Below, in pieces: positions 777 through 21,103 of a stretch of DNA of 34,958 bases. The stretch comes from a virus, in IMG/VR virus record IMGVR_UViG_3300048924_000628, positions 1-34,958 of that record; one strand, written 5' to 3'. The translations under genes and the position numbers were made by a program. The notes beneath the pieces were generated by a model. It was given only the letters and a program-made list of their open reading frames with translations. It had not been told where the DNA came from and ran no database searches. Each line of letters begins with the position of its first letter. Positions within the stretch are counted from its first letter, which is position 1.

Positions 777-802
777 AAGGGGCTGACAGATGTCAGCCCC
801 TT
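777..802. promoter_or_regulatory. Late-operon palindrome A (before tail sheath gene)
   Basis: A perfect inverted repeat: AAGGGGCTGACA, 2-base centre GA, TGTCAGCCCCTT. Its core matches sites at 12440 and 21083. It ends 62 bases before the sheath start. I infer a binding site for the Mor-family activator at a late promoter. On the minus strand it is followed by TTTCTCTTT, so this copy could also act as a terminator for the fibre operon. Confidence 0.6.
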
Positions 803-823
803 GGTTTTGGCAAGATCGGCAGA

Positions 824-1351
824 TTAACCGCGCGTTTGAAAGCGCTGTGGTGACAGCTGTACGGCGAAAGCCGCATCCACCTCGGCCGTGGTCGAGATCG
901 AGCCGTCGCCGATCGCGGCCAACACGTCGGCCTCGATCGAGAAGCAGTCATTCACGTGGTCTAGAACCGCGTCGCTGGCATGGATTATGGTTGCGGCATC
1001 CAGCGTGATGAAACTGCCGTCCGGGCATTTCCACTGGGCGGTAAAGGCGGGGTCTTTGTCCGCCTTCATGCGTGCGCCGGAGATCATGATCTTCGACCGG
1101 TCGTCAGTTGCGACATCGAGGCCGCCGACGACAATCCCGCCGACCTCACGCTCCCAACGCTTGGTTGCCGTGTAGGCATTGAGATCGATTGCTGACGGCA
1201 CATACGGCGGGATCGTGTTTCCCTCCGCTTCCCATTTCGCAATCATTTGGCGATGGCTGTTCCCCATATCGTCGGGGACCAGTGTTTCTCTTACATCATT
1301 GTCAAGCATCGCGCGGATCATTCCGCTTTCGGTGTAGCCTATGACCTCCAT
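824..1351 (-). CDS. DUF4376-domain protein, probable tail fibre-associated protein
   Basis: A 175-residue protein beginning MEVIGYTESGMIRAML. The second half reads like DUF4376: WEREVGGIVVGGLDVATDDRSKIMISGARM, a DPAFTAQWKCPDGSFITLDAATI stretch, then HVNDCFSIEADVLAAI. This domain is common in phage proteins encoded next to tail fibres, where it is often annotated as a fibre assembly or fibre tip component. Here it starts one base after the fibre stop codon, in the position of P2 gene G (fibre assembly), which supports a role in fibre maturation or attachment. The biochemical role of the domain is not established as far as I know. A TGACAGCTGT string near its 3' end resembles the late-operon palindrome. 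Confidence 0.75.
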   Translation of the reverse strand: MEVIGYTESGMIRAMLDNDVRETLVPDDMGNSHRQMIAKWEAEGNTIPPYVPSAIDLNAYTATKRWEREVGGIVVGGLDVATDDRSKIMISGARMKADKDPAFTAQWKCPDGSFITLDAATIIHASDAVLDHVNDCFSIEADVLAAIGDGSISTTAEVDAAFAVQLSPQRFQTRG

Positions 1352-1352
1352 G

Positions 1353-2771
1353 TCAAATCTCCGCTTGAGCTAGGGCTTCGTAAAGCAAATATACGGCTCC
1401 CGTCGTAGAAAGGGCTTGAATGCCTATTTCAAAGTGCCGCTCACTGACGGAAAACACGGTGTCGTAGCCATTGCCGCTGAGATACGTAAGACTCGGTGTC
1501 CCTCTCATCGGTGGGGAGATCGGCCCTCCAATGCTGAAGTTGAAACCTTGCTGCCCATAGCCACGAGTTGCGGCATATATCTTGCGGCAGAACCGCTGAC
1601 ACAGGTTCAACTCTTCTTGATATTTGCGGGCAAAATACTGTGCGTTTCCGAGACCTGGGACAACCTCAACGTCACGAATAAGCCAGCCACCGGTGTTTGA
1701 ACATCCTTGCGCAAAAAATTCGAGGTAAGAGCCAAGCTGCGTAATCCCGGCTGGGAGATCAAACGTGATATGCTTTCTATCAGCCAACGTCGGGTTTGAA
1801 GCAGCAGTAATTGTTTGCGTCATCCGAGTGGTGATGTTCACAAACCCGCTTTCACCATCAACAGTCATAAACCGCACTATCAGATCACCGGGGGTGCCTG
1901 TCTTTTGGCAATCAAAAGAAACCGTTACCCGACCGTCAGGGTTGTACTCAGGGAGGAGCTTCCTGAATTCAATGGTCTCAAACTTTTGGTAAAAGTTGAT
2001 ATTGATCAACGATGCCGTATTGCCGTTTATTTGCGCGCGGTAACGCCCACCAGCAAGATCTCGGCTGCAAGCTGCAGTAGCTCCCGAGAGATACCATCGG
2101 TCAAAGCAGTAACCGCTACCGACATAGACGACGCCACCCCTTTGGTTGACAGAGAAATCGCCGTTTATGACGATGCTTCTATCGGCTCCAACTGCCTGCG
2201 CGCCGATGTTGGCGATGGCCTGGCCCTTCTCGGAAGCGCTGAAATTCTGTGATGCGTCGACCTGAACCCGCTTTGCAAGAGCGCTCGCCTGCGGCGTGCT
2301 GACTGGCTTGTCTGAGTCCTTGGTGTTGTCGACATTGCCAAGTCCGACGTCGGCCTTTTCAAGCGTAACGTCTTCGGAGAGTTCCTTGCCGGCAACCTTG
2401 CGACTATTTGGAACTCGAGCAGCCAACCCAGAGGCCAAAGCCGCCGCAGTGGCATAGTATGCCGGCAGCTGCCCGCCGAGCTTAGCCGAGTTCGGCGAGA
2501 TACCGTCGATAATGATCTTGTCGATCTGATCCTGCGCGAGGTCGATCGACACCTGAAGGTTGGCGATCTGCGGCGCAACGTTCGCCTGAATGTAATCAAG
2601 CGACGCCTGGATGCCCTCCTGCTGGAGCAGCTCGAAGGACGCTTCCAACCCTTCGCGGGCATCGAGACGTTCCGCGATATCACCAAAGACGGTATTCCAC
2701 AGGTCCCGATCGAAGGTCGTTTTCGGCCAAGATGGCAGCTGGTAGCGGTCAGAGCGGGTTGGCGTAGTCAA
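1353..2771 (-). CDS. Putative tail fibre protein (receptor-binding)
   Basis: A 472-residue protein. The N-terminal 70 residues look helical and probably attach to the virion. Residues about 95-109 carry a SAKLGGQLPAYYATA motif, and about 138-160 carry LEKADVGLGNVDNTKDSDKP, a motif typical of phage fibre shafts of the Phage_fiber_2 kind. The C-terminal half (from about residue 200, VINGDFSVNQRGG) looks like a beta-rich carbohydrate or receptor-binding head. The frame opens with TTG at 2771 and has no in-frame ATG for a long distance, so TTG is the likely start; it lies 23 bases inside the end of the upstream 66-residue gene, suggesting coupled translation. The host range determinant is expected to be the C-terminal region. 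The exact fold is unknown. Confidence 0.8.
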   Translation of the reverse strand: MTTPTRSDRYQLPSWPKTTFDRDLWNTVFGDIAERLDAREGLEASFELLQQEGIQASLDYIQANVAPQIANLQVSIDLAQDQIDKIIIDGISPNSAKLGGQLPAYYATAAALASGLAARVPNSRKVAGKELSEDVTLEKADVGLGNVDNTKDSDKPVSTPQASALAKRVQVDASQNFSASEKGQAIANIGAQAVGADRSIVINGDFSVNQRGGVVYVGSGYCFDRWYLSGATAACSRDLAGGRYRAQINGNTASLININFYQKFETIEFRKLLPEYNPDGRVTVSFDCQKTGTPGDLIVRFMTVDGESGFVNITTRMTQTITAASNPTLADRKHITFDLPAGITQLGSYLEFFAQGCSNTGGWLIRDVEVVPGLGNAQYFARKYQEELNLCQRFCRKIYAATRGYGQQGFNFSIGGPISPPMRGTPSLTYLSGNGYDTVFSVSERHFEIGIQALSTTGAVYLLYEALAQAEI

Positions 2772-2949
2772 TGGCTTCCTCCCCGTCCTGGTCGACTATG
2801 GCCTTGATCATGGATCCGGCCATCGTGATTTCGTTCAAGGGGCGGTAGGTGAACGCCCCCAGCTTTACGCTCCGCGCCAGACGCACGTCGTAGGTCTTCT
2901 CGTTTTCAATGAGGGCCAAGGAGAAGCCTTTTTCCTGTTCCGTCGTCAT
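2749..2949 (-). CDS. Small hypothetical tail-region protein
   Basis: A 66-residue protein beginning MTTEQEKGFSLALIENEKTY, with no cysteines and no membrane segment. The frame is open further upstream, but that part lies inside the preceding large gene, and the ATG at 2949 falls 5 bases after its stop (2957), so I chose this start. The sequence (YDVRLARSVKLGAFTYRPLNEITMAG) suggests a compact beta-rich domain. It sits between two fibre-type genes and its end overlaps the fibre gene start, so it is probably a minor tail or fibre-attachment component. I do not recognise the family. Confidence 0.65.
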   Translation of the reverse strand: MTTEQEKGFSLALIENEKTYDVRLARSVKLGAFTYRPLNEITMAGSMIKAIVDQDGEEAIDYANPL

Positions 2950-2956
2950 AGGGACC

Positions 2957-5221
2957 TCAAAGCGCTGAGATGAACACGTCCTGCACAAACGGCACGGACA
3001 CGACATTGTTGGTGTTGGCCGCCATCTTGATGCGGACCGCAGTCGTGGCCGCACCGAGGACATAGGTCGACAGGTACGTGCGTCGCGTCGGCCGCAGTGG
3101 ATCGATGGTGACCTGTGTGGTGGTTGGGGCGACGGTTGTAGCACCCACCATGATCGACGGTGTGAAGGTATGCCGGGCCGTATCGAAGGCATCGACAGTG
3201 ATTTGCGTCACGATCGAAGTGGTCGAAACACCAAAGGCGAAACTCTTGGTCACCCCAACCATGTTTGCACGGTTGCGCGAGGCACGCGACACGGCCTTGT
3301 CATCAAGCTGGATCATCGGCTGCAGATCGGCGGTGCCCATCATTACCATGCGCAGCTCGACGGATGCCGGCAGGCCGACAAGCGGATTGGTTGCCGGATC
3401 GCCGTCGTCGAGTTCAACCCAAAGATCGGTACCGGCTGGACGGATTTCCCATGCGAGCTGGCAGCCACCCGGCACCCAGCCGGCATAAAGCATGTCGATC
3501 TGGGTCATACCGTCCGCAAGATTGAGCGCCTGCATCGGGATGACCGTTCGGGGGCTGCGATAGCGAGCAGCATTGAGGCGGAAGCAGATGTCTGTTTCCG
3601 TCGATCCTTGCGCGAACGCACCATCTGTCGTGATGAACTGGGTGCCGCCAGTGTACTTGTTCGCACCCGAGACATAGAGCGCATGCGCACCCGTCGTGAT
3701 GGTGACGATCGCATACCGCTTGCCGCTCTCCAGCAGCGTGATCGGCATCACGCACTTGTTCCAGCCGACGACCAGATTGCCGTGCGGCAGGATACCCTGC
3801 GCCAGAACAGCGTCAAATTTCGGCGTGCCGGCATTCGTGGTCTCGACCACAAAGACATGTACATCACCATCGGCGCCGACACGAGCGAATGCCAGATCGA
3901 TGCTGGTCAACTGCATCGGCTGCGCGACAAGGAAGGACTGACCGTAGATCGAGCCGTTCACGCCGACCTCTTCGGTGACATAGTCCCAATAAGGGTCGGC
4001 ATAGATTTCGTACCGGATCTGACGGACGCCATAGGTCTGATGACCAGGACCATTGTTTGTGTCCTGATAGACGACTTCGAAGGTCTCGCCGCCGACGTTC
4101 AGCATCTGGCCGGCACGCGCGTCACCTCCCAGACCCGCCCAGCCTGCGGCGTTTTCGCAAGCCCACTGGGTCGGCCCATAGGTCATGCGAATACGCGAGA
4201 CTTCCTTGCGAACCAGCGTTGTTTCCGTGTGGACCAGCTGCGAAATGTTGAGCGTGGCATCCATCGAGGTGTTGGCAATCCGCGTTACCTCATCAAATGC
4301 CGGCACCATACGGCGGCCACGAAAGGCAACCTTCGGATCATCTTCTGCCAGCACCTCAAGCCGGGTCTGGTTGGTCGCAGCAAAGCCGAAACGCACACCT
4401 TCCTCGATACGGGCAAGCCAATCGACATGGGCGTTATCCCACTGGGTCATAACGAGGCCCTGGTCGTAGACATAGGCACGAGCCTCGTCAGGAAGCTCAA
4501 TCTTCAGACGAGCCGCACCGATATCTCGTTGCATCTGTCGAATGATCACCGGGCGCGGGATTTCATCGAGCTTGCCCCAGATGTTGACGATCTGGGTTTC
4601 GATCGTTTCCGTGCGCAGGAACAGGCCGCTGAGATCGACCTCGAGCGAGGTTACCCGTCCTTCGACCTCGTAAAGAGTCTTCACACGGCTGTCGTTACCA
4701 GGCTCGATCGCCTCGATGCCTGAAGAAGTCAGCAGCACAAAGGCAATACAGGCATCGGTTGGGGCGACGACGGGCTTGGTCGGAACGGGATTGGCTTCGC
4801 CGGCCTGGACGATCATTGAGACTTTGCGATTGATCGTCTTCGGCGTCGTGCGCTGGACGATGACGCTGGTTTCCGGATCCTCTGAAGTTTCGAACGGCCG
4901 GTTCGCGCTTTCGGCGACCTCCTCGCCACGAAGCAGGATGGCTACCCAGCGCTGGTCGGAAGCGGCGGCAGGGATCCGCACCTGCAGGTTCAGGTCGATC
5001 GGAGCGGCCTGTTCATAGACAATCTCGCCAGCGACATACCGACCAGCAGATACGGTTATTTCCTGCGCCGATTTCTGGGCTACAGTGAAGGCCGCCCAGT
5101 GCGCCGGGTAGCCAATGGCATCGAGCCAAACCTTGTCGGTGGCTTCCTGACCGTAGAGGCCGATATTTTCGAAATCGCCATGATCAGCAATCTCCGCATC
5201 AGAAAAAGCAACGCGCTTCAT
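2957..5221 (-). CDS. Large tail protein, DUF4815-like
   Basis: A 754-residue protein beginning MKRVAFSDAEIADHGDFENI. The N-terminal half (YPAHWAAFTVAQKSAQEITVSAGRYVAGEIVYEQ and the following region with KTLYEVEGRVTSLEVDL, residues about 180-200) resembles DUF4815 proteins that occur in alphaproteobacterial phage tail operons. The middle holds repeats rich in beta structure, with an MQLTSIDLAFARVGADGDVHVFV stretch like jelly-roll or carbohydrate-binding modules. It lies directly after tail protein I, where P2 encodes fibre gene H, so a role in the baseplate-to-fibre region or host attachment is likely. Length is unusual for a P2 H homologue. I infer the location from context; the molecular activity is unknown. 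Confidence 0.65.
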   Translation of the reverse strand: MKRVAFSDAEIADHGDFENIGLYGQEATDKVWLDAIGYPAHWAAFTVAQKSAQEITVSAGRYVAGEIVYEQAAPIDLNLQVRIPAAASDQRWVAILLRGEEVAESANRPFETSEDPETSVIVQRTTPKTINRKVSMIVQAGEANPVPTKPVVAPTDACIAFVLLTSSGIEAIEPGNDSRVKTLYEVEGRVTSLEVDLSGLFLRTETIETQIVNIWGKLDEIPRPVIIRQMQRDIGAARLKIELPDEARAYVYDQGLVMTQWDNAHVDWLARIEEGVRFGFAATNQTRLEVLAEDDPKVAFRGRRMVPAFDEVTRIANTSMDATLNISQLVHTETTLVRKEVSRIRMTYGPTQWACENAAGWAGLGGDARAGQMLNVGGETFEVVYQDTNNGPGHQTYGVRQIRYEIYADPYWDYVTEEVGVNGSIYGQSFLVAQPMQLTSIDLAFARVGADGDVHVFVVETTNAGTPKFDAVLAQGILPHGNLVVGWNKCVMPITLLESGKRYAIVTITTGAHALYVSGANKYTGGTQFITTDGAFAQGSTETDICFRLNAARYRSPRTVIPMQALNLADGMTQIDMLYAGWVPGGCQLAWEIRPAGTDLWVELDDGDPATNPLVGLPASVELRMVMMGTADLQPMIQLDDKAVSRASRNRANMVGVTKSFAFGVSTTSIVTQITVDAFDTARHTFTPSIMVGATTVAPTTTQVTIDPLRPTRRTYLSTYVLGAATTAVRIKMAANTNNVVSVPFVQDVFISAL

Positions 5222-5230
5222 GATCTCTCC

Positions 5231-5899
5231 TTAGTCGAGGCATCTGCGGTCCATCCAGCCAGCGACGGCGTGACTGCCGTCGATCAGGATGCCGTCTTGA
5301 ATTGTGATGGGGCGTCGCCACGCGAACGTGATCGAATATTGTGTGTCCGGAACCTTCGCGATCGATAGCGCGCGCTTGGCGCGGCGTAGCGGCTCCAGAT
5401 CGACAGGACGAAGAGCTCCGCGACCGAAGCTTGAACGACCAATCTGAAACCGGCCTGCCGGCGCTTGGAGCCTCACGCGCACCAGGTAGTGTGCGGTGAA
5501 TGGCAAATGGTTGATTGGGGTACGCCCGAGAACCGCACGGCCAAACGTGAAGCGAGCGGGATGCGAGACCACATCGATGATCTCGGCATCGACGAAATCG
5601 AGGTACCTCTGGGCGCCAGCGCGCATGCCCTTCAGCTCGCCGATCGGCGACGCAGGATAAAGCACCGATACACCCGCCGCCTGCGCGATCATCTCGCGTT
5701 TGCGGTTTTCTGACCAATCTTCGAACCACAAGTCGACCGAATGATGCGCGCCCAGCCAAGGAAGGAAACGGGCTTCTGTCCGATAAGGGTCGAGCAACTG
5801 CGCGTATGGCACCGGCAAGCCATCCGACATGCCAGCAGATGCGGCCGCTTCGAAAGGTGGCGTAACGGTCGCTGGAAGGAGACGTGCGACTGCGCTCAT
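5231..5899 (-). CDS. I: Phage tail protein I (baseplate wedge)
   Basis: A 222-residue protein of the P2 gpI family. Residues about 33-65 contain the characteristic region with a PYAQLLDPYRTEARFLPWLG segment and the following SVDLWFEDWSENRKREMI helix. In P2-like phages gpI joins gpJ and gpW in the baseplate wedges. The ATG overlaps the gpJ stop codon in an ATGA arrangement (5896..5899), so translation is coupled. The C-terminal third, from about residue 150 (QAPAGRFQIGRSSFGRGALRPV), extends past the core and is probably variable. It is followed 9 bases later by the DUF4815-like gene. Confidence 0.88.
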   Translation of the reverse strand: MSAVARLLPATVTPPFEAAASAGMSDGLPVPYAQLLDPYRTEARFLPWLGAHHSVDLWFEDWSENRKREMIAQAAGVSVLYPASPIGELKGMRAGAQRYLDFVDAEIIDVVSHPARFTFGRAVLGRTPINHLPFTAHYLVRVRLQAPAGRFQIGRSSFGRGALRPVDLEPLRRAKRALSIAKVPDTQYSITFAWRRPITIQDGILIDGSHAVAGWMDRRCLD

Positions 5900-6840: not shown

Positions 6841-7238
6841 GCGCCCCCCAGCTGGTTGAGAGGCGTCGTCTTCAGTCCGAGGGGAATGGCAAGGTCATAG
6901 TTGCCGAAGCGACCTTCTGGAAAATAGACGCCGCCATACCGCAAGCCTAACTTGCCGCCTTCGGACAGTGTCACGAGCTGCAGCTGCGTGATTGCATACT
7001 CGTGCTCCCACTTGGCAGCAGAGGCGTAGAGTTCGTTATAGAGAAGCAGTGCAATCGCTGGGGTCAGATCCTCGGACAGCAACGATCGCAAGTCCGAACC
7101 GAAGTCCAATCGCATGACGCGGCTATCGATCCGAGTGCCCCAGATCTTGCCAAGCGACTGCATCAGGTGAGGAATGCCGGTGATGACCTTCCCAGTCCTG
7201 CCGTCGATGCCTGTCCGGTATCGGATTTCGCCTGCCAT
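6837..7238 (-). CDS. W: Baseplate wedge protein W (GPW/gp25 family)
   Basis: A 133-residue protein with the features of the GPW/gp25 family: an RYRTGIDGRTGKVITGIPHLMQSLGKIWGTRIDSRVMRLDFGSDL segment, near the family's normal length (P2 gpW is about 115). The protein is a lysozyme-like fold without enzymatic role and forms part of the baseplate wedge. Its end overlaps gpJ by 4 bases. It is separated from gpV by one small gene, which is not usual in P2. Confidence 0.9.
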   Translation of the reverse strand: MAGEIRYRTGIDGRTGKVITGIPHLMQSLGKIWGTRIDSRVMRLDFGSDLRSLLSEDLTPAIALLLYNELYASAAKWEHEYAITQLQLVTLSEGGKLGLRYGGVYFPEGRFGNYDLAIPLGLKTTPLNQLGGA

Positions 7239-7259
7239 AAATTCCTCTTTGAACGCTGT

Positions 7260-7460: not shown

Positions 7461-7469
7461 GGTTGCTCC

Positions 7470-11400: not shown

Positions 11401-11856
11401 TTAGGCGGCGATCAAGCCGTTCGCCTTGCGGTAATCGTCTTCGGAAAGACCCATCTGACGCATGACATCGCGGTCTTCGGCAGAAAGGGTCGACAGCTGG
11501 TTGGCTGGCGTCTTGCCGTCGAGGGTCGATGCCGCAAGCGCTGACGTCGTGACACCGAGAAGAGCGGTAACGGAAGTGAGGCCGTCAGCCGTAGCGCAGA
11601 GCGCTGCGTACTGCTCTCGCTGGGCAGGCGAGATTTTCTTTTCCTTCAGCGCGCCCTCGAGCAGCGCATCCACCTTGGACTGGTGATCTGCCTTGGTGCG
11701 GGTTTCAAGATCAGCCGACAACGAAGCCACCTTGTTCAGCGCTTCCTGGTGGACTGCGGGATCGATGCGGGACTTGAGGGACGAGATTGCAGACAAGCAG
11801 GAGTTTTCGGCGGCGTCTTCGGTCAGGCCGAGGGCGACTGCGATGGCTTTCAGCAT
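11401..11856 (-). CDS. Internal in-frame scaffold protein (Mu gpZ-type)
   Basis: Inside the protease gene an ATG at 11856 is preceded 7 bases upstream by a clear GGAG ribosome-binding motif (CCGGAGCCTAAA before ATG). It would make a 151-residue protein (MLKAIAVALGLTEDAAEN...) equal to the helical C-terminal half. Mu and related phages make their scaffold this way, from an internal start in the protease gene, so the scaffold is in excess over protease. The domain is rich in K, A, D, E and S with coiled-coil-like helices (DLETRTKADHQSKVDALLEGALKEK). That the start is used is inferred. Confidence 0.65.
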   Translation of the reverse strand: MLKAIAVALGLTEDAAENSCLSAISSLKSRIDPAVHQEALNKVASLSADLETRTKADHQSKVDALLEGALKEKKISPAQREQYAALCATADGLTSVTALLGVTTSALAASTLDGKTPANQLSTLSAEDRDVMRQMGLSEDDYRKANGLIAA

Positions 11857-12405
11857 TTTAGGCTCCGGAGTTGAGGTAAGGTCGGCCGACGCTACGGCCG
11901 GCATGGATGCAGCGGGTGCAGCGACGAGCGCGGCCGAGTGCAGCCAAAAGGCACGGCCCTGTTCGTCATGCTTGAGCACTGGCGAGATGTAACGATGGGT
12001 GCGGGCCGTAAGGACGCGAAGTCCTTCCTCCAACCATTCGACCTTGCCGAATAGTCCCGTAGCTCGCGCTTCAAGCTTGGAGATCCACCCCACGGCAGGC
12101 GCATTGTCGCCGAACATCGCCTTCTTGACCGTCGCATGGTCAACATCAACGGGCAGATCGATGCCGTCCTGCACGAAGCGTGCAGCCAGCAATTCGGGGT
12201 CGACATCAAACTGACGCCCATCGCGAGCGGTGAACTTGCCACGCGGCGCGACCATGATCCACTCAGGACCACGATTGGCCGCAGCTGCGGCCGGATCAGC
12301 CACGAAGGCGTCGAGGACCGTCAGTCCGGTCATGCTATCGGCGACGCCCATAGCAGGCGCTGCGAGGCAGGAAATCAGGAAGGTGGTTGCGGTGTGTTTC
12401 GACAT
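11401..12405 (-). CDS. Head maturation protease / scaffold (Mu gpI family)
   Basis: A 334-residue protein. The N-terminal domain (about residues 40-160) matches Mu-like prophage protease I: PEWIMVAPRGKFTARDGRQFDVDPELLAARF, then LPVDVDHATVKKAMFGDNAPAVGWISKLEARATGLFGKVEWLEEGLRVL, with THRYISPVLKHDEQGRAFWLHSAALV completing it. It self-cleaves and cuts scaffold during head maturation. The C-terminal domain after about residue 180 is helical and works as scaffold, and can be made separately from an internal start at 11856. I chose the ATG at 12405 (MSKHTATTF) over the one at 12432, since upstream residues look non-coding. No strong ribosome-binding motif stands before either ATG. Palindrome B lies just upstream. 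Confidence 0.88.
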   Translation of the reverse strand: MSKHTATTFLISCLAAPAMGVADSMTGLTVLDAFVADPAAAAANRGPEWIMVAPRGKFTARDGRQFDVDPELLAARFVQDGIDLPVDVDHATVKKAMFGDNAPAVGWISKLEARATGLFGKVEWLEEGLRVLTARTHRYISPVLKHDEQGRAFWLHSAALVAAPAASMPAVASADLTSTPEPKMLKAIAVALGLTEDAAENSCLSAISSLKSRIDPAVHQEALNKVASLSADLETRTKADHQSKVDALLEGALKEKKISPAQREQYAALCATADGLTSVTALLGVTTSALAASTLDGKTPANQLSTLSAEDRDVMRQMGLSEDDYRKANGLIAA

Positions 12406-12439
12406 GAGGCATGTTTGCCATGTCGAGGGCATTAGGCCG

Positions 12440-12459
12440 GGCTGACAGCTGTCATCCCC
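12440..12459. promoter_or_regulatory. Late-operon palindrome B (before protease/capsid operon)
   Basis: The exact 12-base core TGACAGCTGTCA (12443..12454) with a G-rich left flank and TCCCC on the right matches sites A and C. It ends about 36 bases before the protease start. In Mu, an activator-dependent late promoter lies just before the same gene (I), so I infer a Mor-family activator site. No convincing -10 element was found. Confidence 0.6.
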
Positions 12460-12532: not shown

Positions 12533-12639
12533 CCGCTGACGCGATTTCAGGTAACCTTACGGGTATGCGGTCGTCTGACCCCTCTTGCGCGCGCCTACGC
12601 CCGCTCTATGCTTGATGTGAAATCGGCTCGGGGGAAATG

Positions 12640-13071
12640 ATGAAAGCAGTGGCTCTGGCGCTTGTTGCGTCCTTATCAGCGGTGCCAAGTTACGCGGCCG
12701 ACTGGCCACCAGCAGACAACTATCTGAACCCGATCGTTGACTGCGCTTCTGCACCCAGCCCCGATATGTGCAACTCTTCGAAAACGACTTGGCGGGATAA
12801 CTATCGGAAAGCCATCGGTGGTGACTATCAAGGTCAGCGGAACGTTTCCTACTGCTTGAGCACCGGATGTAATAAATCGGTCAAAGAGAACGCTTTACTG
12901 GGTTGCGCGTGGCGGATCGTGATCCTGGAGTCGGGGCACCTTGATGCGGACGAGTCCGATACCAGCAATGCAGACTTTTATTGCGGGCCAGACAGGATTA
13001 GCAAAACCGCTTTAGCAACGGCTCAGGCACAGGCGCGAACCATGCTAAAAATGCTGGCAGGAACCAACTGA
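12640..13071 (+). CDS. Secreted small protein, lysogenic-conversion (moron) candidate
   Basis: A 143-residue protein on the strand opposite to all late genes, set between the MuF and protease genes. Residues 1-19 (MKAVALALVASLSAVPSYA) form a clear Sec signal peptide with an AXA cleavage site before ADWPP. The mature part has several cysteines (DCAS, MCNSS, SYCLSTGC, LGCAWR, FYCGPD), which fit disulfide bonds in the periplasm. The start at 12640 is favoured over 12637 because GGGGGA stands 5 bases upstream. Its own promoter region, orientation and signal peptide fit a moron expressed from the lysogen. I do not recognise the family and assign no function. Confidence 0.8.
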   Translation: MKAVALALVASLSAVPSYAADWPPADNYLNPIVDCASAPSPDMCNSSKTTWRDNYRKAIGGDYQGQRNVSYCLSTGCNKSVKENALLGCAWRIVILESGHLDADESDTSNADFYCGPDRISKTALATAQAQARTMLKMLAGTN

Positions 13072-13106
13072 TTGAACCTGACGCGATTTCGAACTAATAT
13101 TCCCAA

Positions 13107-14412: not shown

Positions 14413-14416
14413 GCCA

Positions 14417-16081
14417 TCAGTCCGCGATGTCGCCGATGCCGCGTGCGATCGCCGTCAAACGACCGAGACGCTCGGCCATCTTCGAGGCGTCCGGACCGGA
14501 GGCTTGAAGCATCTTCAAAGCGTCTTCAAAGCTTGTTGCGTTGAGGACGATGTCGGCGATTGGCTGGACAATGGGATTAGCCATTTCCTCCCAGTCGTCC
14601 ATGGCGCGGGCAAATAGCGTTTCGACCTGGTCGAGCGCATCAGGCTCGCCGGCCTCGGCCGCAAGGAAGGCAGTGCAGGCACCGCACCGGCACGCGCGGC
14701 GATGATCGATGACGATCGCCGAAAGCGCGGCGGTCTTCGATTTCGCTTCCTGGGCGGCCTTGTCATCGTTTGCCGGCACCGGTGCCTTTGCCTCACGAGC
14801 CTTCGTAGACGGCTCCGATGCTCCCGGCGCTGCGGTGGAGACGGGAGGCGTCAGCAGCTCGTCACCCTCGCCGGGATCCGAGAGGCCGATCTTTTCGCGG
14901 ACCTCGGATTGCTTGATACGCAAGCCGAGCGGTACAAGTCGCTCGACCGCCGTGCTCAGAGCATCGATGTCCTCCGGGTCGGAGACCAACAGCTGGACCT
15001 GCGGATAGTGTTCCTGAGGACCAAAGTTCAAATCGACGAACACTTTGATCAGGTCACGATTGGCAGTTCGCGAAAGCTGCTTCCCGTCTGCCGTCAGAAT
15101 ATCGAGGCGGACTTCATTGTGGATCTTGGCCTGACCGAGCGACGATCCGTTGTCACTCGTCATGGTCTGCCCAACGACAAGCTTGGAGACCTGCTTGTCA
15201 ACGTAATCTACCAGGCCGCCGAAGACTGCAGCGCCATTCGATCCAGTGACTTCATGGAACTCGATATCCATCCCGGCCGGAATGATCGCGGCCGCGTCGT
15301 TGGCGATCGACGACACGGCCCTCAGAAGCGTGCGTTTGTCAGCCGGGCTTGCGGCAGCATTATATTTGCCGACGCGCAGAGGCATCCCGTAAACTTCAGA
15401 AAATGCCGCCCAGTCCTGCAGAGTGAACTGCTGGATCAGATAACCCCACGCCGCCGCACGCGCCATTCCTCTTCGGAGCGGCAAGCCCATCTTGGTTCGC
15501 GGTAGATGCCGCAGAAACTTGCCTTCAGGCAGCACCTCGCCCTCGATCGAGCCATCCACTGCGAGCCGCAGTTCGGATAGGGTCAGTCGATCGAATTGGA
15601 AAAAGCGTGGATCCCGCGGCTTGTACTCAACCGGCTTCAGGAACTTGCTTTCATATTCCCACATCATCTCGACAACGGCGTATCCCTTGGAAATACCGTC
15701 CGTCAGATTGCCGAGTGCCTCACCGAACTCAGGATCGTTAACCAGCTCGGTGACGGCATCGACAACCTTCCTGTCCGCCTTTCCTGCTTCAACGGTGGGA
15801 TTGATCCCTTCGATAGCCAAGCGCCTGGTCTGCAGCTGGGATGCATAGTGCAGATACCGCTCTTCCATCTCTTCCGCGAGCGTGAGGTAGGATCGGGCAT
15901 CACCAATTGCTGCATCACGAAGGATCGTCCCAAGGCGCTCAGGTGTAAGTCCTGATGCGACACGGTCCTCATGTGTCCGCCGGACGCCTGCAATGGTCGG
16001 TGTTGCGACCTCCTGCGAAAGAGCCTGGACGATGATGGCCTGTCCATCGGGGCCAAGTATGGAGGATGTACGCGTGGTCAC
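14417..16081 (-). CDS. Portal protein (Mu gp29-like, DUF935)
   Basis: A 554-residue DUF935 portal protein. Landmarks are LTPERLGTILRDAAIGDARSYLTLAEEMEERYLHYASQLQTRRLAI near residues 40-90, GYAVVEMMWEYE, FFQFDRLTLSELRLAVDGS, and MGLPLRRGMARAAAWGYLIQQFTLQDWAAFSEVYGMPLRVGKY, in family order. The dodecameric portal forms the DNA entry vertex and connects to the terminase. GTG at 16081 is my preferred start; TTG at 16084 in the same frame is equally close to a GGGAG ribosome-binding motif, giving one extra residue. It overlaps the terminase stop by 4 bases, so translation is coupled. The C-terminal tail includes a short Cys-rich RACRCGACTAF segment. Confidence 0.9.
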   Translation of the reverse strand: MTTRTSSILGPDGQAIIVQALSQEVATPTIAGVRRTHEDRVASGLTPERLGTILRDAAIGDARSYLTLAEEMEERYLHYASQLQTRRLAIEGINPTVEAGKADRKVVDAVTELVNDPEFGEALGNLTDGISKGYAVVEMMWEYESKFLKPVEYKPRDPRFFQFDRLTLSELRLAVDGSIEGEVLPEGKFLRHLPRTKMGLPLRRGMARAAAWGYLIQQFTLQDWAAFSEVYGMPLRVGKYNAAASPADKRTLLRAVSSIANDAAAIIPAGMDIEFHEVTGSNGAAVFGGLVDYVDKQVSKLVVGQTMTSDNGSSLGQAKIHNEVRLDILTADGKQLSRTANRDLIKVFVDLNFGPQEHYPQVQLLVSDPEDIDALSTAVERLVPLGLRIKQSEVREKIGLSDPGEGDELLTPPVSTAAPGASEPSTKAREAKAPVPANDDKAAQEAKSKTAALSAIVIDHRRACRCGACTAFLAAEAGEPDALDQVETLFARAMDDWEEMANPIVQPIADIVLNATSFEDALKMLQASGPDASKMAERLGRLTAIARGIGDIAD

Positions 16082-17694
16082 CAATGCCGTCTCCCAAAGT
16101 CCAAATCGCCGTCATCGCCATCGGCCGCAGCTGCGGCAACCAAATCGCGGACAGACTGATAATTGTAATCGTGCCACTGGCCTCGACTGGCGTAGTGCGC
16201 CAGCGCCAGAGCAATCGCGAAGTCGCCATGGCGCTTCTTCGAGCCTTCGCCAGTACGAAGATCCGGCACCTTCGGCACACCGTTAACGACGCGCACCAGC
16301 CGGATGTCAGCCAGGTGTTCATCGTCCTTTGAAAGGGCGATTGCATCGTCTTCAAAGGCTGCTTTCAAGGGCGGCATCTGGAAGCGATACCAATCAACGG
16401 AGAACTTGATTGCAGCAATCAGGCCGCCCGGAGCATCAGGAAGCCGGAAGCCGAATTCGCGCCCCATGTCTTCTGCTACTGTCCAACCCATGCCGGTCGC
16501 ATCGAACGCCGCACCGATAAGCCGCGGGGCACCTTTCAGGATCATGCGGGTCAGAAGCTTTTGCTCGTCACCCGGCACATTCCGCATCTCCAACGTTAAG
16601 GCTTCCTCACGCTTCAGGAGCTTGGTCATCGACAGAAGTGTACCAACAGAAAGGTCGGCGACGCGGGCGAAGTCAAACCCGAAAGCATGTGTGCGTTCAC
16701 GGTCGAGCTGGGAAAGAGCTTGGGTCAACTCGAAAATCGCGGGTGCCATCAGCGTGGCCCGCTCCAGTCGAGTGCGTTGCAGATAGTCGCGAGGCAGCTC
16801 CAACCGAATAATCGGGGCCTCGATCGTCATTCGAGCCTCGATCAGCGGCGCCGACAGCCAGGCACCGGTGCCAGCGGTCGGAATACAGAACAACTCCTCG
16901 TCAGCGCCGTCGCCATAGAAGTCGATAATCTCCTGGCGCCACTTTGCTTCACCCTCGGCCGACCATTCGGTCCCGTTAACGAGACAGATGCGCTCGTATA
17001 GCCCCTCTTTAAGCGCTTGATCGAAATCGATGCGAATATGGCTGTACTTCGAACGCTCGGCCAGGATGTCCTGGATCTGCTTATTGAACTCGTTCTCAGT
17101 GCCATTGTGTGTAGAGCAGACAACGACCTGGCCACCCCACATCAGGAATGCGAGGGCAGCCTTCAGCAATTCTGGCAAACTGTCGACGAAGGCCGCTTCG
17201 TCGATCATGACGACGCCTTGCTTGCCTCGGAGGGTTCGCGGCGCCGACGACAAGGCAAGGATCTCGAAGCCAGAAGCAAACCGAATGCGGAACGCCTGGA
17301 TAGACCGTTCGCCCTCTTTGTCACTGTCGTCGAACAGGAACTCGTCGACTGCCATGGCAGCATTGGAAAACGCCCGCGCCCACATTGCACAGGCGTCGAT
17401 GAACTCTCGCGTCATCTCCTGAGAATAGGAGATGTACATCACGTCCATACCGCCAGCTTCCTTGATGCGGCCAGCGCGTAGCGCGGCATAGGAAGCAAAT
17501 CCAAAGGTCAGGCCAATACGGCGGCTTTTTTCCACGAACAGGACGCGGCATGAACTTTCGAGCAGTTCGATGACGCGGGCCTGATATGAAATAAGGGCCT
17601 TCGGCAGGCCCAACTCCTTGACGACACCCGGCAGAACCTCAGTCGCAGTGCGCCGGGCTTCGGCCCATTGTGCTTCTGTGATCGGAGCGCTCAT
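16078..17694 (-). CDS. Terminase large subunit (Mu gp28-like)
   Basis: A 538-residue packaging motor. Residues 55-63 (EKSRRIGLT) form the Walker A-like motif, and 161-169 (VVMIDEAAF) form Walker B with the catalytic glutamate. A conserved CSTHNGTENEF coupling region lies at about 193-203. A FGFDFARVAD segment (338-347) begins the RNase-H-fold nuclease. The protein cuts and pumps phage DNA together with flanking host DNA, as Mu packages headfuls from integrated copies. It overlaps the gp27-like gene and the portal gene by 4 bases each. Confidence 0.93.
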   Translation of the reverse strand: MSAPITEAQWAEARRTATEVLPGVVKELGLPKALISYQARVIELLESSCRVLFVEKSRRIGLTFGFASYAALRAGRIKEAGGMDVMYISYSQEMTREFIDACAMWARAFSNAAMAVDEFLFDDSDKEGERSIQAFRIRFASGFEILALSSAPRTLRGKQGVVMIDEAAFVDSLPELLKAALAFLMWGGQVVVCSTHNGTENEFNKQIQDILAERSKYSHIRIDFDQALKEGLYERICLVNGTEWSAEGEAKWRQEIIDFYGDGADEELFCIPTAGTGAWLSAPLIEARMTIEAPIIRLELPRDYLQRTRLERATLMAPAIFELTQALSQLDRERTHAFGFDFARVADLSVGTLLSMTKLLKREEALTLEMRNVPGDEQKLLTRMILKGAPRLIGAAFDATGMGWTVAEDMGREFGFRLPDAPGGLIAAIKFSVDWYRFQMPPLKAAFEDDAIALSKDDEHLADIRLVRVVNGVPKVPDLRTGEGSKKRHGDFAIALALAHYASRGQWHDYNYQSVRDLVAAAAADGDDGDLDFGRRHW

Positions 17695-18281
17695 GCCGCT
17701 TTAACCCCAAGGATCTGCGAAAGGATTTCCTGCGTGGTCTCCGCCGTGAGGCCCCTGGATTTGGCGACATTCGCGACGGCCTTCTCAGCCTGGTCCTTGA
17801 ACTCGCTTTCGATCTTCTGGCGCCGGCTTGAAGAAACGCCCTGGGCCTGCGCGGCAGCGCGCAGCGCGTTGGCCATCGCCATCGCCTCCTTTGGTGCCCA
17901 ACCAGCTTCACCCTTGTTGGTCAGCAATTCGAAGACAAGCGTTTTGATCGCCTCCGCTGCAATCAGCGTGAGGTTATCCGAGTCTTCGACATCGAACTGG
18001 CCGGCCAGGGTTTTCGCGATATCACGGGTCTGATTAAGCCGTGAAGTCAGGGTCGCAAGCTTCAATGAATACCGGTTGAAGGCGCTGAAAGACGGTATGG
18101 TGAACTCGAGCTCGCCGCGATGCTCGCGCAACACAGTCTCCAGGCGGCCCACAAACTCCTGATAGATGTCTGTCTGAGTTCGATCGGTATCCTGCAACGC
18201 TTCAGCAGCCCATGCGACAACCGGAGCGCAAGGCTCCGGCAAAAGCTGAATGCCGCTTAGACGGCCTCGACCTTGCGCCAT
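17691..18281 (-). CDS. Terminase small subunit-like (Mu gp27, DUF3486)
   Basis: A 196-residue DUF3486 protein from MAQGRGRLSGIQLLPEPCAPVVAWAAEALQD. The GRGRLSGIQLLPEP start and the middle QTDIYQEFVGRLETVLREHRGELEFTIPSFSAFNRYSLKLATLTSRL match this family, which stands where the small terminase (DNA recognition) subunit is expected in Mu. The frame also opens with TTG at 18287, but ATG at 18281 sits after the upstream stop and is preferred. It is followed by a 4-base overlap with large terminase. Confidence 0.87.
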   Translation of the reverse strand: MAQGRGRLSGIQLLPEPCAPVVAWAAEALQDTDRTQTDIYQEFVGRLETVLREHRGELEFTIPSFSAFNRYSLKLATLTSRLNQTRDIAKTLAGQFDVEDSDNLTLIAAEAIKTLVFELLTNKGEAGWAPKEAMAMANALRAAAQAQGVSSSRRQKIESEFKDQAEKAVANVAKSRGLTAETTQEILSQILGVKAA

Positions 18282-18283
18282 CG

Positions 18284-18583
18284 TCAACCTCCGATCGAGG
18301 GGCGCTTAACGCCTTCGAGAATGGTGCGGCGCTCGACGTGATCAGCGCCTAACTGCTTCAGTTCAGCCACCAGCGTCGTGCCGATGGCAGCGATACGGAT
18401 AGCATCCATGTCAGCGAGGAAGCGCAACTGCTGCCTGATCCATTCGCGAGTGCGACGATGGGCATAGCTCTCCAAGACCGCAGCGATAATGCTGTCGTTC
18501 AAGCGATTGTCGGTTTGCTCATGCAGCGCCCGAAGGATAACGAGCCGGGCATCCTGCGTAAGGGTTTCATTGAAGTCGCTCAT
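18284..18583 (-). CDS. Mu gp26-like small protein
   Basis: A 99-residue protein from MSDFNETLTQDARLVILRALHEQTDNRLNDSII. The LRALHEQTDNRLNDSIIAAVLESYAHRRTREWIRQQLRFLADMDAIRI segment has a winged-helix look and matches small phage proteins of the VpaChn25_0724 type, which occupy this place in Mu-like head operons (Mu gp26 position). The start ATG at 18583 was chosen because it overlaps the DUF2730 stop by 4 bases; upstream codons in the same frame belong to that gene. Its role, possibly in packaging or regulation, is not known. Confidence 0.78.
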   Translation of the reverse strand: MSDFNETLTQDARLVILRALHEQTDNRLNDSIIAAVLESYAHRRTREWIRQQLRFLADMDAIRIAAIGTTLVAELKQLGADHVERRTILEGVKRPSIGG

Positions 18584-18945
18584 GCTGCGGGCCTTTCCAT
18601 CAAGAAGTCTTCCACGCGACGGATCGCCCGCTCTGTGGCTTCCGACGATTTGACCATCGTCGTCACCTGACCTTTCATTTCGGTGAGATCGTTCTGGAGC
18701 TTGTAGACCATCTCCTTGTTCGGCATGTGCTTGAACTCGTTCTCGAGCGTCTGCGTACGCTTCCCAAGCTCGGCGATCGCCGCCATCATGGTCTTCTTTT
18801 CCTCGGCATCGGACTTCCGGAAAGCGTCCAGTTCGGAAGCCATTTTCTTGGCGCCGGACGAAATCATGATCCACGCGGACGTCCCTACCGAGATGATCAC
18901 CGCAATCAGGCCAAGCCAGTCTTTCAAAACACCCACATCGATCAT
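18580..18945 (-). CDS. Mu gp25-like protein (DUF2730)
   Basis: A 121-residue DUF2730 protein: one N-terminal membrane segment (residues about 10-30, WLGLIAVIISVGTSAWIMISSG), then a long coiled coil (KKMASELDAFRKSDAEEKKTMMAAIAELGKRTQTLENEFKHMPNKEMVYKLQNDLTEMK). The MPNKEMVYKLQNDLTEM motif is typical. In Mu-like phages this gene lies right after the lysis cassette. Its function is unknown; the single anchor with a coiled coil could suggest an accessory lysis or envelope role. Confidence 0.85.
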   Translation of the reverse strand: MIDVGVLKDWLGLIAVIISVGTSAWIMISSGAKKMASELDAFRKSDAEEKKTMMAAIAELGKRTQTLENEFKHMPNKEMVYKLQNDLTEMKGQVTTMVKSSEATERAIRRVEDFLMERPAA

Positions 18946-18948
18946 CGG

Positions 18949-19158
18949 CTACTTTCCTTCGTCAGCTGACTGGCAGCCGACGCACCGGATCGCGGACGGC
19001 ATTATAAGTCGGCGGGCTTCTGGTATCGTGTGCCCGCATTCCACGCATTCATCACGGCCCGTTTGATTGAGCGCGGTACTAGCGCTGGCGATCATCGCCA
19101 TGCGCTCTTCGTCTTCTCGCTGGGATGCCAGATCGAAAGCAGCGTTGCTCCAGCTCAC
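18949..19158 (-). CDS. TraR/DksA-type zinc finger protein
   Basis: A 69-residue protein with a C4 zinc finger at the C-terminus: CVECGHTIPEARRLIMPSAIRCVGCQ, the spacing of TraR/DksA proteins (Cys-X2-Cys, then about 17 residues, Cys-X2-Cys). TraR-type proteins enter the secondary channel of RNA polymerase and change promoter use. The N-terminus is helical (DEERMAMIASASTALNQ), also as in TraR. It overlaps the Rz1 stop by 4 bases within the late operon, as in other Mu-like and P2-like phages. Confidence 0.88.
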   Translation of the reverse strand: MSWSNAAFDLASQREDEERMAMIASASTALNQTGRDECVECGHTIPEARRLIMPSAIRCVGCQSADEGK

Positions 19159-19445
19159 TGAATGCCTCCGGCAGCATCAACGGCCGCAACTGCAGCTGCT
19201 CGACGTGCCTCGCAGACATTGCGAGCAACACGGTCGCTCGACCAGCTGGAGAACACCTTGTCTTCAGCCAGGCGAGAGGTCGGCCGAGGCGTGAGCGCCG
19301 GACAGGGCTTGCGGGCTTCAGGCGGAAGCTCGATCGGTACCTTCCTGGTGATGACCACCGGCTCGGCCACTTTTCGCTCAGTCTGGGAGCATGCGGCCAC
19401 GATCGAGGCCAAGCCCACAATCGCTGCTAACCGGTAGCTGTTCAT
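19155..19445 (-). CDS. Outer-membrane spanin (Rz1-like lipoprotein)
   Basis: A 96-residue protein with a lipoprotein signal: MNSYRLAAIVGLASIVAAC with the lipobox cysteine at residue 19. The mature part is proline-rich (ELPPEARKPCPALTPRPTSRLAED), as usual for o-spanins. Its first 68 bases overlap the end of the Rz-like gene in another frame, the classic Rz/Rz1 layout. Spanins join inner and outer membrane and fuse them at lysis. A second cysteine at about residue 48 (RKPCPAL) may pair with a partner. Confidence 0.85.
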   Translation of the reverse strand: MNSYRLAAIVGLASIVAACSQTERKVAEPVVITRKVPIELPPEARKPCPALTPRPTSRLAEDKVFSSWSSDRVARNVCEARRAAAVAAVDAAGGIQ

Positions 19446-19764
19446 TCTTCACCTTCAGGTCTGCGAGTTGCTGTTCTGCGGTCCGGATCTGCTCGGCCGC
19501 GTTGGTTTGGATCTGCAGCGCAGTGCGGATCTGCTCAGCCGCGCGCTTTTCGGTCGCGGCATTGGCTTTCTCGATCTTGCCTTCCCAGATGGCGTCCCGC
19601 TCGGCGATCGCGCTATCCACGCGGTCTGCTGTCGTTCGTTCGTAGGTAGCGGCAGTCTGCCTCTCGAAGTATGCCGTGCCGAGCAGCAAGACGTTGATGG
19701 CGATGACTGCGAAGATCAGTTTGGTCAGAGGCGATGCCGCCTTCAAAAGCATCGCCTCGATCAT
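19378..19764 (-). CDS. Inner-membrane spanin (Rz-like)
   Basis: A 128-residue protein with one N-terminal membrane helix (residues about 14-32, TKLIFAVIAINVLLLGTAY) and then a long periplasmic coiled coil rich in Ala, Glu and Gln (IEKANAATEKRAAEQIRTALQIQTNAAEQIRTAEQQLADLKVKNEQ), as in i-spanins. The C-terminus ends in a short cysteine-containing tail. The ATG overlaps the holin-like gene stop (ATGA), and its 3' end encloses the Rz1 start. It acts with Rz1 in the last lysis step. Confidence 0.85.
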   Translation of the reverse strand: MIEAMLLKAASPLTKLIFAVIAINVLLLGTAYFERQTAATYERTTADRVDSAIAERDAIWEGKIEKANAATEKRAAEQIRTALQIQTNAAEQIRTAEQQLADLKVKNEQLPVSSDCGLGLDRGRMLPD

Positions 19765-20048
19765 GGGCGCTCGCCCTCCTGATCCGGTTCATCGCGGGGA
19801 TGGTAAGGCGGTGAAGAAGGCTGATGCTGCGACCTGGTCATGGTGCGCATGTCGAGCGAACCAAAGCCGCGATGAATGCCGAGGATCGAAACGATCAGGG
19901 CGACCATCAACGGAATGACCAGGCTAGAAAACGCCATAACCTGTCCTTGGGCGACCGCGCCGATCGTCAAACAGACGATGACGATCCACGCCATAAAGGA
20001 CGAAAGCCAGAGGGCCTTTTTCGTGGTGCCGTAGCTCGGCTTTTCCAT
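19761..20048 (-). CDS. Holin-like protein with two membrane segments
   Basis: A 95-residue protein with two hydrophobic helices (about residues 15-36, WLSSFMAWIVIVCLTIGAVAQG; and 38-58, MAFSSLVIPLMVALIVSILG) and a charged C-terminal tail (RSQHQPSSPPYHPRDEPDQEGERP). A two-helix topology, the length and its place between endolysin and spanin genes fit a holin that forms pores at a set time. I do not recognise the exact family, so antiholin is an alternative. It begins 4 bases after the endolysin stop. Confidence 0.68.
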   Translation of the reverse strand: MEKPSYGTTKKALWLSSFMAWIVIVCLTIGAVAQGQVMAFSSLVIPLMVALIVSILGIHRGFGSLDMRTMTRSQHQPSSPPYHPRDEPDQEGERP

Positions 20049-20052
20049 TGGC

Positions 20053-20772
20053 TCAGGCCTCGTTTGTGGAGACCGGCACGCCGGCAGCCGTGAGCATGAT
20101 GCGACCGCCGACAGGAGCCTCGCCGGTGTTCGGCCAGCGGAACTGCGACAACCGATCTTTTTCGATCCGGGTGATGCTCACGCTGTTTTTTTGGTTGCCG
20201 CCCAGTACGTGGTAATGGGTCGCGTCTTCGCCCATGTAGAACGCAACGTGACCACCACCCGAGCGGGTAAAGGTTACGATCGCGCCAAGTGCAGGATTAA
20301 CCAGGCGGCGGCCGAGCTTGTTGTACTCCAAAGCTCCGAGCGGGTTCTTCGGCAGCAGCTCGCGCGGCAAAGTCTGCGCGATTACATGACCGACGAACAG
20401 GCCACACCAGGCGGTGTCGTCATTGGTGAAGAATGATGCGACCCAGCCGCCCACGGACTTCGCCCAGCTGATGATTGTCGGATTGGATTTCGGGCCAGGA
20501 ATTTCCTTAAGTCCCATGAAGCGGCGAGCCTCACGCATCCAGACTGGCTCGGCCGGAACTTGCACGTCGACGGACCTGTCGATCTTGCTGCCGGGATCGA
20601 GGCGCAGGGCCGCGACCGTTGCCGCATCGGCCTGACCGCTCACCAACAGCCTTGCAGCGCGTTGGAAGCGCTCCAGAGCCTGAATAACGCCGCGCCCGTG
20701 CGCGCCGTCATATGCACCACTATAGGCACCCCACAAACGCAGTCGTGCAATCAGCCATTCGTCAAACGTCAT
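20053..20772 (-). CDS. Endolysin (NlpC/P60-like, TIGR02594 type) with N-terminal peptidoglycan-binding domain
   Basis: A 239-residue protein. Residues about 3-60 (FDEWLIARLRLWGAYSGAYDGAHGRGVIQALERFQRAARLLVSGQADAATVAALRL) look like a peptidoglycan-binding repeat. The catalytic part holds EARRFMGLKEIPGPKSNPTIISWAKSVGG (81-109), AWCGLFVGHV with candidate nucleophile C123, GGGHVAFYMGED with candidate H175, and GGNQKNSV (191-198), the order of the TIGR02594 group of cysteine peptidases. It would cut peptide links of the cell wall. No signal peptide is visible, so it needs a holin. It overlaps the upstream gene by 4 bases. Confidence 0.88.
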   Translation of the reverse strand: MTFDEWLIARLRLWGAYSGAYDGAHGRGVIQALERFQRAARLLVSGQADAATVAALRLDPGSKIDRSVDVQVPAEPVWMREARRFMGLKEIPGPKSNPTIISWAKSVGGWVASFFTNDDTAWCGLFVGHVIAQTLPRELLPKNPLGALEYNKLGRRLVNPALGAIVTFTRSGGGHVAFYMGEDATHYHVLGGNQKNSVSITRIEKDRLSQFRWPNTGEAPVGGRIMLTAAGVPVSTNEA

Positions 20773-21044
20773 GTATTCGACCCTTTGATGTAGATGCTCC
20801 CCTCGGAAGAAGGGATCGGGTTGAACACCACGTGAGCTACATCAGGCCTCGCCCCCTGGTCACGGCGCAGTTCGTAAACCGTCAGCACGTCCGGTTCGCC
20901 GGTAATCGCGATACCTTTGCTGTCCTGGTACAAACTGATCGCCGTCGCCACATCAGGCGCCTGTTCACCGAGGCGCAATGCGCCGACGGCGACCAGTCGC
21001 TCAAGCAGCCACAGGTCGAACTGATGCATGTTATGCCCCGTCAT
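20769..21044 (-). CDS. Peptidoglycan-binding-like protein upstream of endolysin
   Basis: A 91-residue protein. The segment FDLWLLERLVAVGALRLGEQAPDVATAISLYQDSKGIAITGEPDVLTVYELRRDQGA closely echoes the N-terminal domain of the next gene's endolysin, so it appears to be a free-standing peptidoglycan-binding-like domain. ATG at 21044 has AGGG very close upstream; the ATG at 21029, with GGGG 6 bases before it, is an alternative. It is the first gene after mor and is expected to start the late operon, 39 bases from palindrome C. It could target or tune the endolysin. Confidence 0.65.
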   Translation of the reverse strand: MTGHNMHQFDLWLLERLVAVGALRLGEQAPDVATAISLYQDSKGIAITGEPDVLTVYELRRDQGARPDVAHVVFNPIPSSEGSIYIKGSNT

Positions 21045-21082
21045 GTCCCTGGGGCGAATATGCTCTGATTGGTTTGGGGTAA

Positions 21083-21103
21083 GGGGCTGACAGCTGTCAC
21101 CCC
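21083..21103. promoter_or_regulatory. Late-operon palindrome C (between mor and lysis genes)
   Basis: GGGGC then TGACAGCTGTCA then CCCC: the 12-base core (21088..21099) is identical to site B and equals site A except for the centre. It lies 18 bases after the mor stop and about 39 bases before the first lysis gene, the place of the Mu lys promoter. I infer activation by the adjacent Mor-family protein. There is no T-run after it, so a terminator is less likely. Confidence 0.65.

Follow-up and report, generated by a model that had tools for sequence, protein, structure and literature searches.

Three conserved palindromes probably mark late promoters controlled by one Mor-like activator in Mu-like phages of Rhizobiales and relatives

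Three palindromes between the late genes

The stretch of DNA analyzed here, which we call the window, comprises the 34,958 nucleotides of IMG/VR virus record IMGVR_UViG_3300048924_000628, a fragment of a Mu-like phage whose late genes all lie on the minus strand. We studied three copies of a palindrome with the exact core TGACANNTGTCA (TGACA-N2-TGTCA), all located within intergenic gaps of these late genes, together with a gene for a protein resembling the Mor activator of phage Mu (Table 1). Site 1 falls in the gap that follows the stop of the tail-fibre gene at 824 and precedes the tail sheath gene (A of the ATG at 714), and site 2 lies immediately upstream of the ATG of the head maturation protease (A at 12405). 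Site 3 separates the mor-like gene from the first gene of the lysis region, its core starting 22 bp beyond the mor-like stop codon. The window holds no further copy of the exact core, and none of 100 dinucleotide-shuffled windows contained one. Copies with up to two mismatches occurred at chance level (15 observed, 11.5 expected).

An earlier sequence-only reading of the window had described three full copies and no others, each preceding a late block (sheath, protease/capsid and lysis/packaging) and the last directly following the mor-like gene, all of which our analysis bore out. The G4/C4 flanks that it ascribed to the motif are regular only in part, as the consensus among relatives is cTGAC(A)NNTGTCAGCC. 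The copy that it placed at 777-802 does contain the core, at 784-795, while the full span corresponds to an entire terminator hairpin surrounding it.

Table 1 Features of the window related to the three sites
Feature	Position	Strand	Basis
Gene for the mor-like activator (130 aa; helix-turn-helix at the C-terminus, SVREAARISGLHERTIFRMKR)	21121..21513	-	phrog_836 'late transcriptional activator', E=1e-18
Operator 3 (predicted lysis promoter), TGACAGCTGTCA	21088..21099	-	Position shared with Mor loci of relatives
Lysis promoter, predicted -10 CATATT, 25 bp from operator; predicted +1 ~21050	21057..21062	-	Spacing analysis
Inverted repeat GCCCC (21051-21055) / GGGGC (21035-21039)	21035..21055	-	Repeat found by sequence
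First lysis/packaging-block gene, small protein of unknown kind, promoter 3 target	20769..21029	-	Gene position
Operator 2 (predicted protease/head promoter), TGACAGCTGTCA	12443..12454	-	Exact core
Head promoter, predicted -10 region CAAACAT; predicted +1 at or within 1-2 nt of protease ATG (12405)	12411..12417	-
Gene for head maturation protease of the Mu I type, opening the head operon	11401..12405	-	phrog_328, E=3.5e-66; PF10123 Mu-like_Pro, E=3.6e-48
Operator 1 (predicted sheath promoter), TGACATCTGTCA on coding strand	784..795	-	Position shared with relatives
Intrinsic terminator hairpin enclosing operator 1; 11 pairs, then TCTCTTT	777..802	-	Top-scoring terminator of the region
Sheath promoter, predicted -10 TAAGGT, 25 bp from operator; predicted +1 ~746	753..758	-	Spacing analysis
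Inverted repeat CCCTGAA (743-749) / TTCAGGG (724-730), predicted start site to sheath Shine-Dalgarno	724..749	-
Tail sheath gene, cut by contig end, MAGTTDFVGVRVFSDL...	1..714	-	Same N-terminus after third operator in relatives

Just upstream of operator 2, a plus-strand gene (12637-13071) opposes the late genes. It encodes a 144-aa protein with a signal-peptide-like start, whose only match was to the uncharacterised family phrog_5882.

Conservation of the sites in related phages

We gathered relatives of the Mor-like protein from viral contigs and Rhizobiales genomes, yielding 45 Mor loci. The exact core follows mor at a distance of 6-37 bp in 36 of the 45, and a copy with one mismatch follows it at 11-93 bp in four more. 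The remaining loci are that of Ochrobactrum phage POA1180, where the two half-sites are separated by a single base, and four without a site. Relatives whose Mor is 55-89% identical to that of the window keep the motif at three homologous positions, so that the absence from related phages which would have spoken against the sequence-only reading was not seen. All six relatives in a first set of contigs longer than 39 kb carry exactly three exact copies each, and a second set comprised eight contigs above 38 kb, seven of which carry three or more. The exception, a long relative with a single site (G031), has no detectable protease or sheath homologue. The third site in relatives precedes a gene whose product begins with M(S/A)GTTDFVGVR, the tail sheath.

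We scanned 2.9 million viral contigs for exact matches to the 16-base sequence GGCTGACANNTGTCAGCC without using Mor as a reference and obtained 84. These lie just after mor (25), before the protease gene (22) or before the sheath gene (18) in 65 cases; the other 19 are elsewhere, some of them in truncated pieces of the same phages. TGAC and TGTCA were invariant in 70/70 sites with a two-base spacer, most of these bases being fixed by the search pattern itself. The promoter-proximal half-site TGTCA showed no variation, whereas the distal TGACA occasionally ends in G or T, and this asymmetry suggests unequal roles for the two half-sites.

The genomes of prophage hosts contain 3-9 copies of the core in ~5 Mb, usually with two or more within the prophage. 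Copies outside prophages amount to ~1 per Mb, close to chance density, and a reversed control pattern gave 0-2. With this density, and with no copy in the window shuffles, an origin as a host repeat or by chance was rejected, and the motif is not equally common in host DNA.

Two further arrangements were also found. The Rhizobium rhizogenes GBBC3284 prophage (L081) carries two tandem operators before the sheath gene, each with a -10-like hexamer 25 bp downstream. At L077:7952, a near-copy of the dyad (CTGACACCTGTCAT), beside another dyad, has the unusual position of ~100 bp upstream of the gene for a 45% identical Mor.

Predicted promoter anatomy of the sites

For the analysis of promoter elements we assembled 73 non-redundant sites (31 lysis, 23 protease and 19 sheath). 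A hexamer of the form nAnnnT begins 24-26 bp past the palindrome in 96% of them, compared with 13% when the spacer was shuffled, and none of 2000 shuffles reached the observed value. The best match to TATAAT likewise scored higher at the sites than in shuffled sequences (mean 3.29 vs 2.09). Conversely, no -35 element was found at the usual spacing in the 73 sites, where the score was no better than after shuffling (2.27 vs 2.59). The expectation of late promoters at the palindromes is therefore supported by a -10-like hexamer at 24-26 bp and the lack of a -35.

Since the spacing to the -10 is fixed, the dyad can be placed relative to the start site: with the -10 set at -12 to -7, the palindrome covers about -49 to -38 and is centred at -43.5. 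Late transcripts are predicted to start ~37-38 bp past the dyad. The Mor dimer of Mu binds two 5-bp inverted repeats centred at the same position, in place of a -35 (PMC4390567), and Mu C binds a related dyad at late promoters (PMC4287176). The layout of Mor/C-dependent promoters, in which a dyad near -43.5 replaces the -35 and is combined with a -10, was found over the 73 sites.

The -10 of the protease promoter is flanked by GGCA...TGCC (12405-12420 in the window), a small inverted repeat just before the predicted leaderless ATG that is kept in most relatives.

This anatomy also bears on the tail module, which is P2-like. One late promoter of P2 is located before the sheath gene of that phage, and an Ogr/delta-type zinc-finger activator could in principle control the P2-type tail genes here, leaving only the Mu-type genes to the Mor-like protein. 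Activators of the Ogr type are zinc fingers with a site near -55. The dyad of the window and its relatives is centred at -43.5, its presumed activator has a helix-turn-helix and a single cysteine, and the sheath, protease and lysis genes are all preceded by an identical dyad with identical -10 spacing. Moreover, all three sites have changed together in one relative (L309, see below). We consider such divided control so improbable as to be nearly negligible.

The sheath site as a predicted terminator and operator

The sheath copies differ from the others in that they extend into long perfect hairpins, their arms reaching a median of 6 bp past the core and the next 8 bases containing 3.7 T, compared with 3 bp and ~1 T elsewhere. 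The outer arms vary between phages but stay paired. A GC-rich stem followed by a T run, as expected of an intrinsic terminator, was found at site 1 only, where the hairpin ranks first among the terminator-like ones of its region and probably ends the tail-fibre operon; sites 2 and 3 were not called as terminators.

These properties of the sheath copies are what one would expect if the palindromes were merely intrinsic terminators repeated between operons. The lysis and protease sites, in contrast, have short arms and few T, and for these two of the three sites a pure terminator function was rejected. It is the sequence of the core that stays constant, not pairing alone, and a -10 follows at fixed spacing. 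Furthermore, four phages (L049, L081, L091 and L092) have a separate terminator just upstream of the sheath operator, and nevertheless retain the adjacent operator. A terminator role as the whole explanation is thus highly improbable. Judging from their sequences, phages thus differ in whether the terminator that closes one operon and the operator of the following operon form a single element, as in the window, or stand side by side, as in these four.

A separate terminator-like dyad was observed between mor and the operator at L305:9376-9420 (CCTGACTTAGTCAGGCTTTTTT). It has the same half-site letters around another centre.

The probable reader of the operator

The phrog_836 profile is common to the protein of the window (E=1e-18), Mu Mor (1.2e-10) and Mu C (2.1e-11), placing the three in a shared family. 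One phrog_836 protein was seen among the open reading frames scanned in the window, part of the late region lying outside it, and one annotated activator in POA1180. A structural model of the protein had a pLDDT (predicted local distance difference test) of 84, with C-terminal helices in the helix-turn-helix region. Its best viral structure match was to the Mor-like factor of Achromobacter phage Mano (E=0.055). Sequence and fold searches of the PDB did not place the protein in any solved family.

The best evidence that the Mor-like protein reads the dyad is the co-variation of the operator with Mor. Phages with POA1180-type Mors, which are 36-41% identical to that of the window, carry TGACA-N1-TGTCA after mor and before the protease gene, with two exceptions: in L302 the operator lies ~850 bp after mor, and in L306 the protease copy has an imperfect half-site. 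A more distant phage, L309 (Mor 37% identical), contains exactly three copies of GGACANNTGTCC (GGACA-N2-TGTCC), located after mor, before the protease gene and before a tail gene, each followed by an nAnnnT hexamer at 26 bp. When the operator classes were mapped on the Mor tree, three changes sufficed, which is the minimum possible.

Several further DNA-binding proteins are encoded by these phages, and the dyad might instead be read by a ParB-like protein, the CII-like CP76, a Ner-like protein or a host factor. Palindrome binding is frequent among ParB-like proteins, and one of these was present in 17/17 phages tested. Exchange of modules, however, allows Mor to be told apart from the other regulators. 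In L004, the operator of the window goes with a Mor 88% identical, yet its ParB and CP76 are only 28% and 37% identical over about half their length, whereas L309 has a different operator despite CP76 at 53%, Ner at 47%, tnpB at 63% and a full-length ParB at ~37% identity. Mor class alone follows operator class, and the dyad is centred where Mu Mor binds. None of ParB, CP76, Ner, the transposition genes, GemA and DUF3164 tracks operator class, and all were rejected as readers. As ParB, CP76 and Ner diverge independently of operator class, a reader of this kind, or a host factor, is unlikely, and we assign it a small residual probability. Control of the Mu-type head genes and P2-type tail genes by a single mor-like activator, as the sequence-only reading had proposed, is accordingly supported.

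A possible translational layer

A secondary and less certain finding concerns the translation of the first gene behind each promoter. In all 36 collected protease sites, 36-39 nt separate the palindrome from the ATG; a distance of 36-38 nt was a search condition for those with a two-base spacer, although they were also listed without it. No Shine-Dalgarno match of any kind was present in 11/23 non-redundant protease leaders. Because the predicted +1 falls within 0-2 nt of the ATG and these 11 leaders lack a Shine-Dalgarno sequence, the protease/head mRNA is predicted to be leaderless.

At the lysis gene, the bases directly after the -10 (GCTCCAG, GCCCC and variants) are complementary to the Shine-Dalgarno region, in most cases 5-8 nt upstream of the ATG. 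The mean perfect stem measured 6.0 bp, compared with 3.4 in shuffles, and the repeats show compensating pair changes. Inverted repeats were found at p <= 0.05 in 17/28 lysis sites and in 6/17 sheath sites, the latter carrying a weaker form of the repeat. When the test was confined to the predicted transcript, the leader hairpin was weak (5/26). The repeat is strong only if the bases between the -10 and the +1 are included, which suggested a model based on read-through RNA. The predicted accessibility of the Shine-Dalgarno sequence at lysis sites was 0.28 in read-through RNA and 0.46 in RNA starting at the predicted +1, with a p value that is not independent, as the phages are related. In the lysis leader of the window itself, the GGGGC arm of the repeat forms the Shine-Dalgarno sequence of the first lysis-region gene (ATG at 21029) and the GCCCC arm precedes the predicted +1; predicted accessibility was 0.34 both with and without the 5' arm, showing no difference.

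We tentatively propose, at somewhat less than even confidence, that each Mor-controlled late promoter, possibly including those of Mu, is paired with a device restricting translation of the first gene to the late transcript, namely a hairpin over the ribosome site of read-through RNA for the lysis and sheath genes and a leaderless start for the protease gene. If true, one activator would gate both transcription and translation of the lysis, head and tail genes.

Discussion

Where the palindromes lie, how constant their distance to the -10 is, that a -35 is missing and that the operator changes in concert with the Mor clade can all be read directly from the sequences. We interpret the palindromes as operators of three activator-dependent, sigma-70-type late promoters. 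A Mor-like protein distantly related to Mu Mor and C, probably produced from the early operon, would bind these operators, most likely as a dimer centred at ~-43.5 that replaces the -35, and recruit the RNA polymerase of the host to a weak -10. In this way, one activator would turn on the lysis/packaging, head and tail operons together, and the two steps of Mu (Mor, then C) would become one. We infer binding, dimer state, activation and timing from this arrangement, and consider it very probable that the phrog_836 Mor-like activator directly drives a late regulon of three promoters without the separate C step of Mu. The interpretation given by the sequence-only reading is supported in substance.

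A second layer may be superimposed on this scheme. The sheath operator would lie inside the terminator of the upstream operon, and the head mRNA would be leaderless. At the lysis and sheath genes, a hairpin in read-through RNA would hide the ribosome-binding sites, while late transcripts would lack its 5' arm.

Several observations weigh against direct control of the regulon by the Mor-like protein. The protein scored 16.0 bits against the Pfam Mor family (PF08765), below the cut-off of 24.9, as did its POA1180 counterpart with 23.0, and we therefore term it Mor-like and not a member of PF08765. A Foldseek search of its model against the PDB returned no match at E <= 0.001, and no Mor crystal structure was among the 50 matches listed. 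No site was present within 120 bp of mor in four of the 45 loci (L071, L072, L077 and L078). The pattern used to collect sites fixed most of the core bases, and the phages are related, so that the counts are not independent. Finally, binding, activation and start sites are predictions. Near L071, as well as in L163 (5012) and L165 (2734), the first operator is located ~770-790 bp beyond mor; in this Mor subgroup, the gap leaves space for an extra gene between mor and the operator.

Taken as it stands, the analysis provides a testable late-gene map for widespread, little-studied Mu-like phages of Rhizobiales and relatives, viruses of soil bacteria whose lysis, head and tail genes are apparently switched on together by one DNA-binding protein. 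An activator family whose operators have altered their sequence and spacing jointly at three sites offers a natural set for decoding DNA recognition by Mor and C. The results further hint at a second gate acting on the translation of late genes, and Mu, despite its standing as a classical model phage, may share it. In the literature searched, we found no report of this motif in phages.

POA1180 (PMC5492332) is close to the phage of the window, having the same gene order, three dyads at the same places and a 41% identical Mor annotated as 'late transcriptional activator', and differs in its one-base spacer. The text of the POA1180 paper (PMC5492332) mentions neither promoters nor palindromes.

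The putative leader hairpins recall gene e (lysozyme) of phage T4, where the ribosome site of early read-through RNA is buried in a hairpin, and transcripts from late promoters, which lack the 5' part of this hairpin, are well translated (reviewed in PMC3014915). The leaders described here would act alike, but T4 has its own late sigma factor, and the evidence here consists of base pairing, covariation and predicted accessibility. In Mu itself (L313), Plys, PI and Pm also have an inverted repeat of 6-7 bp running from near the -10 to the ribosome site or start codon (GCCATCA/TGATGGC, CTGCTCA/TGAGCAG and TGATGA/TCATCA, respectively), seen in the sequence without a significance test. A publication on Mu lysis does not contain the word hairpin. 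For Mu gene I, a short leader that includes a ribosome site is annotated, in contrast to the protease mRNA here, which looks leaderless.

Another close counterpart is the middle promoter Pm of Mu with its activator Mor (PMC4390567, PMC4287176). In both systems, an activator of ~130 aa is encoded behind gemA in the early region, the 5-bp inverted repeats have their centre at -43.5, a -10 occurs without a -35 and the promoter, predicted in our case, is found where mor ends. GenBank AF083977 shows a predicted terminator overlapping Pm, a partial precedent for the combined terminator and operator at the sheath gene. The Mu element spans 16 bp with a 6-bp spacer, while TGACA/TGTCA are separated here by 2 bp (or 1 bp), and Mu Mor acts at Pm but not at the late promoters; the activator of the window would drive late operons directly. 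A dyad operator unlike that of Mu, as the sequence-only reading had it, is thus correct for half-site sequence and spacing; Mu Mor and C bind dyads as well, and the placement is the same. The C-dependent promoters Plys, PI, PP and Pmom (PMC4461284, PMC4287176) share with the present ones dyad operators, a single activator and positions before the lysis genes and gene I, but Mu uses C as a second activator for them, and the sites here precede the lysis, protease and sheath genes. The system is best called one resembling the Mor/C-dependent promoters of Mu, in which the operator sequence and spacing classes are new, as are, apparently, the replacement of two activators by one and the three promoters spanning Mu-type head and P2-type tail genes.

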